Source of the DNA: Oscillospiraceae bacterium
Lineage (GTDB): Bacteria > Bacillota > Clostridia > Oscillospirales > Oscillospiraceae
Reading direction: 5' to 3'
Length of the DNA stretch: 46,391 nucleotides
Assembly (NCBI GenBank): GCA_031261745.1
Contig: JAISJC010000003.1
Coordinates: forward strand, 1 to 46,391
The notes under the pieces are model-generated. The model did no database searches and was not told the DNA's origin. It saw only the letters and a list, made by a program, of their open reading frames with translations. The translations under genes were made by a program, and so were the position numbers. Every line of letters starts with the position of its first letter. Position 1 is the stretch's first letter. Shown here in pieces: positions 32,845 to 32,986 of this stretch.

Positions 32845-32873
32845 TTGTAAATGCCCGCGCCGCGTCGTATACT
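32845..32873 (+). promoter_or_regulatory. Predicted sigma-A-type promoter of the nif operon
   Basis: TTGTAA - 17 nt - TATACT; predicted start near 32880, about 107 nt upstream of nifH. Confidence 0.68.
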
Positions 32874-32882
32874 TACATCAAC

Positions 32883-32963
32883 AACAAAAAAGGCGGCTCA
32901 CGCGCCATATCCACAACGGGGTGGTTTTCACGCTGAAATTGCGTGAAGGCCGCCTTTTTTGTT
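32883..32963 (+). promoter_or_regulatory. nif 5' leader: large inverted repeat, terminator-like hairpin between promoter and nifH
   Basis: AACAAAAAAGGCGGC (32883-32897) is the exact reverse complement of GCCGCCTTTTTTGTT (32949-32963); the stem can be extended by TCACGC/GCGTGA with a 2-nt bulge. GC stem running into T6. nifH SD (aggagg) follows 14 nt later. Confidence 0.8.
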
Positions 32964-32986
32964 ACTCAAAAACAGGAGGTAAGGTT

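Follow-up and report, generated by a model that had tools for sequence, protein, structure and literature searches.

ANTAR targets were defined by Ramesh et al. as an A1/G4 hexaloop overlapping a terminator, and AC/GU closing pairs have been reported for the targets of EutV, in which the two hairpins P1 and P2 are both required for induction in vivo (PMC3369931). It was later found that the EutV dimer touches one hexaloop at a time, and the minimal site was redefined as a single hexaloop; the same authors called for more work on single sites and left the natural role of single hexaloops open (Walshe et al. 2022, PMC8934654). A study of 2012 had already predicted ANTAR targets at nitrogenase genes, in Pelobacter carbinolicus and with nitrogenase subunits among the matches in 1902 genomes (PMC3369931), so that the kind of element described here was known. 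We found no experimentally shown nif attenuator in Clostridia in the open-access literature searched.

The window, that is the whole stretch of 46,391 nt from an Oscillospiraceae bacterium that was analysed, carries a nif operon preceded by a structured leader. From sequence comparisons, we consider it likely that this operon starts with an ANTAR-type transcription attenuator under nitrogen control, with one canonical hexaloop. To our knowledge, nif switching in Clostridia without the proteobacterial NifA/sigma-54 logic is poorly described. The leader provides a concrete candidate for nif control at the level of transcription elongation in a gut bacterium, in which both the bases and the class of protein can be named.

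The leader between the nif promoter and nifH

The features of the leader and of the first genes of the operon are the following.

32832-32848, + strand: ACAAT-N7-ATTGT dyad over the -35 box, reading ACAATCCGGTGTATTGT; nif-specific motif, putative regulator site
32845-32873, + strand: sigma-A promoter TTGTAA-17-TATACT; transcription start expected near 32880; position supported by relatives
32883-32897, + strand: outer (left) arm of the 15+15 repeat, AACAAAAAAGGCGGC; not conserved in relatives
32892-32906, + strand: local hairpin GGCG-GCUCACG-CGCC at the place of P1, 4 nt before P2, with a 7-nt loop without A1/G4
32911-32924, + strand: P2-like antiterminator hairpin CCAC-[AACGGG]-GTGG (hexaloop with A1 = 32915 and G4 = 32918)
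32918-32956, + strand: inner intrinsic terminator of 16 bp, 32918-32933 with 32941-32956, its 5' arm starting within the P2 loop
32927-32947, + strand: 7-bp hairpin TTCACGC-UGAAAUU-GCGUGAA, the terminator tip; compatible with P2
32949-32963, + strand: shared 3' arm (GCCGCC), with the U-tract at 32955-32960
32974-32979, + strand: Shine-Dalgarno sequence of nifH, AGGAGG
32987-33805, + strand: nifH, ATG at 32987 (PF00142)
33820-34143, + strand: nifI1, PII family (PF00543)
34144-34536, + strand: nifI2, PII family (PF00543)

The sequence-only reading had described a terminator-like 15+15 hairpin between the promoter and nifH, and we recovered it: AACAAAAAAGGCGGC (32883-32897) pairs without mismatch with GCCGCCTTTTTTGTT (32949-32963), and the fold computed for the 91-nt leader has an energy of -40.3 kcal/mol (z = -5.9 compared with 200 dinucleotide shuffles). 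This is the sole perfect 15-nt inverted repeat with arms at most 100 nt apart in the 46-kb window. A mobile or repeated element as its origin was ruled out, the leader DNA being present once in the genome. The promoter was likewise found where it had been proposed, with a start expected near 32880. Its pattern alone is at chance level in the window (5 sites found vs 5.8 expected), but the call is backed by the relatives, since in 23 of 69 non-redundant nif leaders a motif around TCTACAATTTGATGTATTG ends in the -35 box, with a -10 box 17-18 nt further on. A separate terminator had been placed at 32777-32830; the sequence is present, but it folds no better than its shuffles (z = -1.0). No named riboswitch class had been recognised in the leader, in agreement with our Rfam scan, which gave 0 matches in the window at the gathering threshold and nothing significant in the leader. 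At a relaxed E-value, only chance matches to Salmonella sRNAs appeared, caused by the A/U-rich terminator, and these were discarded.

Three elements had been missed before: the hexaloop hairpin 32911-32924, the competing 16-bp terminator and the local hairpin 32892-32906. P2 and the 5' arm of the terminator share 32918-32924, from the third last base of the loop on, and the inner terminator (32918-32933/32941-32956) leads into the U-tract 32955-32960. Because the 5' arm of the terminator is made of the loop and the 3' arm of P2, the two structures are mutually exclusive. The GCCGCC 3' arm can in turn pair with either the inner arm (32918-32924) or the outer arm (32892-32897). When the growing transcript was folded, P2 and the hairpin 32892-32906 formed earliest, and after emergence of the 3' arm the inner terminator won (-33.1 kcal/mol at 32958). 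With P2 enforced in silico, the outer arm paired with the 3' arm instead (-30.4), so that P2 alone might not stop termination in this leader. Judging from these modelled folds, read-through could also need the outer arm to be kept busy, with the hairpin 32892-32906 as its holder. The 15+15 repeat is probably not the core switch but adds a further arm that competes for this 3' strand.

Further along the nif region, an 880-aa protein (38875-41517) fuses a NifN/E-like domain, a radical SAM domain (NifB) and a C-terminal NifX/NafY-type domain. A strong terminator-like hairpin, AACGCCCCCGACGAAGTCGGGGGCGTT, is located at 45734-45760 after a gene ending at 45721, and possibly marks the end of the nif operon.

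Distribution of the hexaloop unit among nif leaders

In each of the nearest nif clusters from the same family and order (G105, G111, G098, G415, G208 and G232), a strong hairpin is located after the promoter and ahead of nifH. The sequences of these six hairpins are unrelated and their position is kept. What recurs across the relatives is a small hairpin with an A1/G4 six-nt loop at the start of the terminator 5' arm, in the forms GAAC-AAAGGG-GTTC, CCAC-AAAGGG-GTGG, CCGC-AAAGGG-GCGG and GAC-AAAGAA-GTC. The nifH leader of G232 (L034, -180 to -10) contains three tandem hexaloop units, each with its own terminator, and two tandem units are present in leaders of Acetobacterium (L095, L099, L108) and Youngiibacter (L097). 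Among culturable relatives, the unit is carried by Acetobacterium wieringae, Lacrimispora and Ruminiclostridium.

A scan of NifI1-bearing genomes yielded 80 nif loci and, together with the earlier ones, 83 leaders, 69 of them non-redundant. A unit was called when a stem of at least three pairs was accompanied by an overlapping terminator arm. A1/G4 hexaloops overlapping a terminator gave 36 matches in 27 of the 69 non-redundant leaders. In the same leaders, loop lengths of 3-5 and 7-10 with A1/G4 fixed gave 0-6 matches (5, 1, 4, 6, 2 and 3 for lengths 4, 5, 7, 8, 9 and 10, respectively), and with the length fixed at six, 14 of the 15 other letter pairs also gave 0-6. The exception was GG with 15, part of which were GAAGAG-type loops, as judged by eye. 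These contrasts between letter pairs and loop lengths are independent of how the units were selected. The closing pairs were mostly AC/GU (GAC-GTC in 16/36 and CAC-GTG in 8/36). The sequence-only reading had named compensatory changes in the stem among related genomes as a check. The 15+15 repeat is not conserved, but P2 and the inner terminator do show paired changes (covariation of 0.486 vs 0.185 shuffled for P2 and of 0.601 vs 0.266 shuffled for the terminator), which are only supportive and partly circular since the units were picked for having both helices. Across the nif leaders compared, conservation is confined to the 14-nt hairpin and the terminator.

In the window, the leader has no P1, meaning a further A1/G4 hexaloop upstream of P2. 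Across the nif leaders, the set on which P1 was scored, it accompanied 4 of 45 units, compared with 1-12 for other letter pairs, and was thus not above chance; we therefore treat the leaders as a single-hexaloop variant and do not assign them as canonical dual-hexaloop ANTAR targets. No general upstream hairpin was detected in the relatives (mean z = -0.1 against shuffles for the 40 nt upstream of P2); the same 40 nt in the leader of the window have z = -2.0. The distance from predicted start to P2 is below 25 nt in several leaders. On these comparisons, the nif leaders look like natural cases of single-hexaloop sites.

Other short elements were observed upstream of the unit in some lineages: a conserved GTCGAC in a possible hairpin loop in Lacrimispora-type leaders (L078, L080, L086, L072), and a palindrome, TGCATGCA or TGCTAGCA, in a possible loop in Anaerocolumna-type leaders (L093, L105, L107).

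The -35 motif has a distribution of its own. TGYATTG is found in 27 of the 69 non-redundant nif leaders, vs 4.2 in shuffles, and the motif is also carried by leaders without the hexaloop unit (L084, L089, L102, L070, L073), which makes it independent of the attenuator. This suggests a second, separate control, and a nif-specific regulator may bind the dyad over the -35 box. A second exact copy of the motif in the genome (C60) was dropped, as it falls within coding sequence of the opposite strand.

ANTAR proteins and other nitrogen genes

The genome encodes one ANTAR (PF03861) protein above the Pfam cut-off (G000:C77:22819-22980). Its gene is preceded by parts of gltB, purA, genes for a ferredoxin and an oxidoreductase, the alpha part of gltB and a 282-aa truncated glnA, and is followed by carA. 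Over the 50 genomes surveyed, an ANTAR gene is present in 24/24 of those with a strong unit vs 14/26 of those without (Fisher p = 1e-4, a statistic that ignores kinship); some nif genomes have an ANTAR gene and no hexaloop unit. Among 43 ANTAR proteins, the RNA-contact residues K149, E160 and M172 of EutV are present in all, and position 164 is aromatic in all. At the EutV contact positions R142, K149, E160, Y164 and M172, the protein of this genome has I, K, E, H and M; alignments place a histidine at position 164 in AmiR as well. Asn replaces the phospho-acceptor Asp54 of its receiver domain, and activation of this protein by phosphorylation is unlikely because the acceptor is missing. The Asp is present in 9/43 ANTAR proteins and missing in 34/43.

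The glnA gene directly before the ANTAR gene (L195 7589-8999, G000:C77) is cut to the N domain and half of the catalytic domain. The same arrangement occurs in two more genomes of the genus (L046, L049), and in other relatives glnA seems longer. The truncated GlnA might sense glutamine on behalf of the ANTAR protein.

The unit is not confined to nif. It precedes three amtB genes in G098, and the covariance model R1 found it upstream of a PII gene in G565 and of amtB in both G232 and G415. Because the training set of R1 consisted of nif leaders, the window included, its nif matches are not independent; its matches at amtB, PII and transporter genes are. Weak R1 matches also appeared in three of the control genomes in which no ANTAR gene had been detected, one of them with E = 0.015 before a phosphoglucosamine mutase-like gene. 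For the genome under study, the regulon search used patterns and the model only. A script scan located the unit GAGC-AAAGAC-GCTT upstream of a PII gene, with a gene for an ABC transporter ATPase next in line (L196 2043-2092, G000:C93), and R1 at E <= 1 returned the nif leader only. The pattern ACAANGRGGT showed no excess over the reversed pattern in this genome (27 vs 22), and among its loci the full unit was present at the nif site only.

Proposed mechanism, rival explanations and known systems

The sequence-only reading had proposed conditional termination in the nif leader, and we find this to be the best-supported interpretation: the hairpin is kept in position without its sequence, save for the A1/G4 hexaloop on the terminator arm. 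As controller it had left the choice between an RNA-binding protein, a ligand and a trans-acting factor, and our results favour the first of these, in the form of an ANTAR-type protein. Downstream of the promoter, the transcript can fold into either P2 (32911-32924) or the terminator (32918-32956), and relatives keep both pairings while their sequences vary. Under an ample supply of fixed nitrogen, active ANTAR protein would be lacking, the terminator would form and RNA polymerase would stop before nifH. When nitrogen is short, an ANTAR protein would bind and hold P2, preventing the terminator and allowing transcription of nifHI1I2DKEN; the candidate is the protein encoded in the glutamate synthase operon of the same genome, adjoining the shortened glnA. 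In this leader, the hairpin 32892-32906 at the place of P1 would hold back the outer arm. NifI1 and NifI2 would add another level of control, on the completed enzyme.

The hairpin could instead work without any switch, as a fixed element that stabilises the 5' end of the nif mRNA or as an insulating terminator that stops read-through. It is very stable and only a few nt away from the predicted 5' end, and its sequence is wholly different between relatives, all of which would suit such a role. Neither function needs an A1/G4 hexaloop on the terminator arm, yet this signature beats other lengths and nearly all letter pairs; the unit moreover co-occurs with ANTAR genes, and an insulator sitting after the promoter would block its own operon. 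We hold this explanation to be distinctly unlikely. That a ligand-binding riboswitch governs the terminator appears extremely improbable: the leader does have a terminator and an alternative fold, but it belongs to no Rfam family, the conserved 14-nt hairpin and terminator are too small for a metabolite pocket, and some leaders have less than 25 nt from start to hairpin.

The two remaining possibilities keep a protein on the hexaloop. An RNA-binding protein other than ANTAR would fit the missing P1 and the absence of the unit from some ANTAR genomes, but the loop length, A1/G4 and the closing pairs all match ANTAR targets, an ANTAR gene accompanies the unit in 24/24 genomes, and the targets are nitrogen genes, as in ANTAR regulons; we consider such a protein very unlikely. 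The leader might also be a canonical two-hairpin ANTAR target, the 7-nt-loop hairpin 32892-32906 being a drifted P1. A gap of 4 nt separates this hairpin from P2, and the fold of the upstream 40 nt beats shuffles here (z = -2.0), but its loop has no A1/G4, the relatives have no general upstream hairpin (mean z = -0.1), and G111 has almost no space between promoter and P2, all of which makes a drifted P1 unlikely.

Extending the single-hexaloop ANTAR attenuator beyond this operon, we tentatively put forward, with slightly less than even confidence in the whole, that in anaerobic Clostridia and relatives a lone ANTAR hexaloop on a terminator is a working and widespread attenuator in nif (and amtB/PII) leaders, in some cases as tandem arrays, that the two-hairpin rule is not general, and that the ANTAR protein is mostly unphosphorylated and receives its signal from the glutamine/glutamate branch. 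If single hexaloops do work, searches demanding two hairpins will have missed targets.

The dual-hexaloop antiterminators of eut (EutV, Enterococcus faecalis), nasF (NasR) and amiE (AmiR) (PMC3369931) resemble the nif leader in their A1/G4 six-nt loop, in the closing pairs of the EutV type and in the overlap with the terminator 5' arm, whereas the nif leader is without a canonical P1 and is located upstream of nifH. The nitR/glnA antitermination of Clostridium acetobutylicum, as far as it is described where cited in PMC4676874, likewise ties an ANTAR-type antiterminator gene to glutamine synthetase and ammonia control, but concerns glnA and not a nif leader. The ANTAR targets predicted at nitrogenase genes (PMC3369931) involve the same class of genes, as part of a nitrogen regulon, and the same proposed mechanism; they came from a model demanding two hairpins, whereas the nif leader has a single one. 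Walshe et al. (2022, PMC8934654) proposed that the smallest site to which ANTAR binds is one hexaloop and that sites with a lone hexaloop may exist; this leader agrees with their proposal and bears on the question raised by that EutV-RNA structure, the natural role of such sites in ANTAR control. These authors expect single sites where there is no time limit set by a moving polymerase, whereas here the lone hexaloop overlaps a terminator. Compared with these systems, the new part is the single-hexaloop form and its spread over the nif leaders of these lineages.
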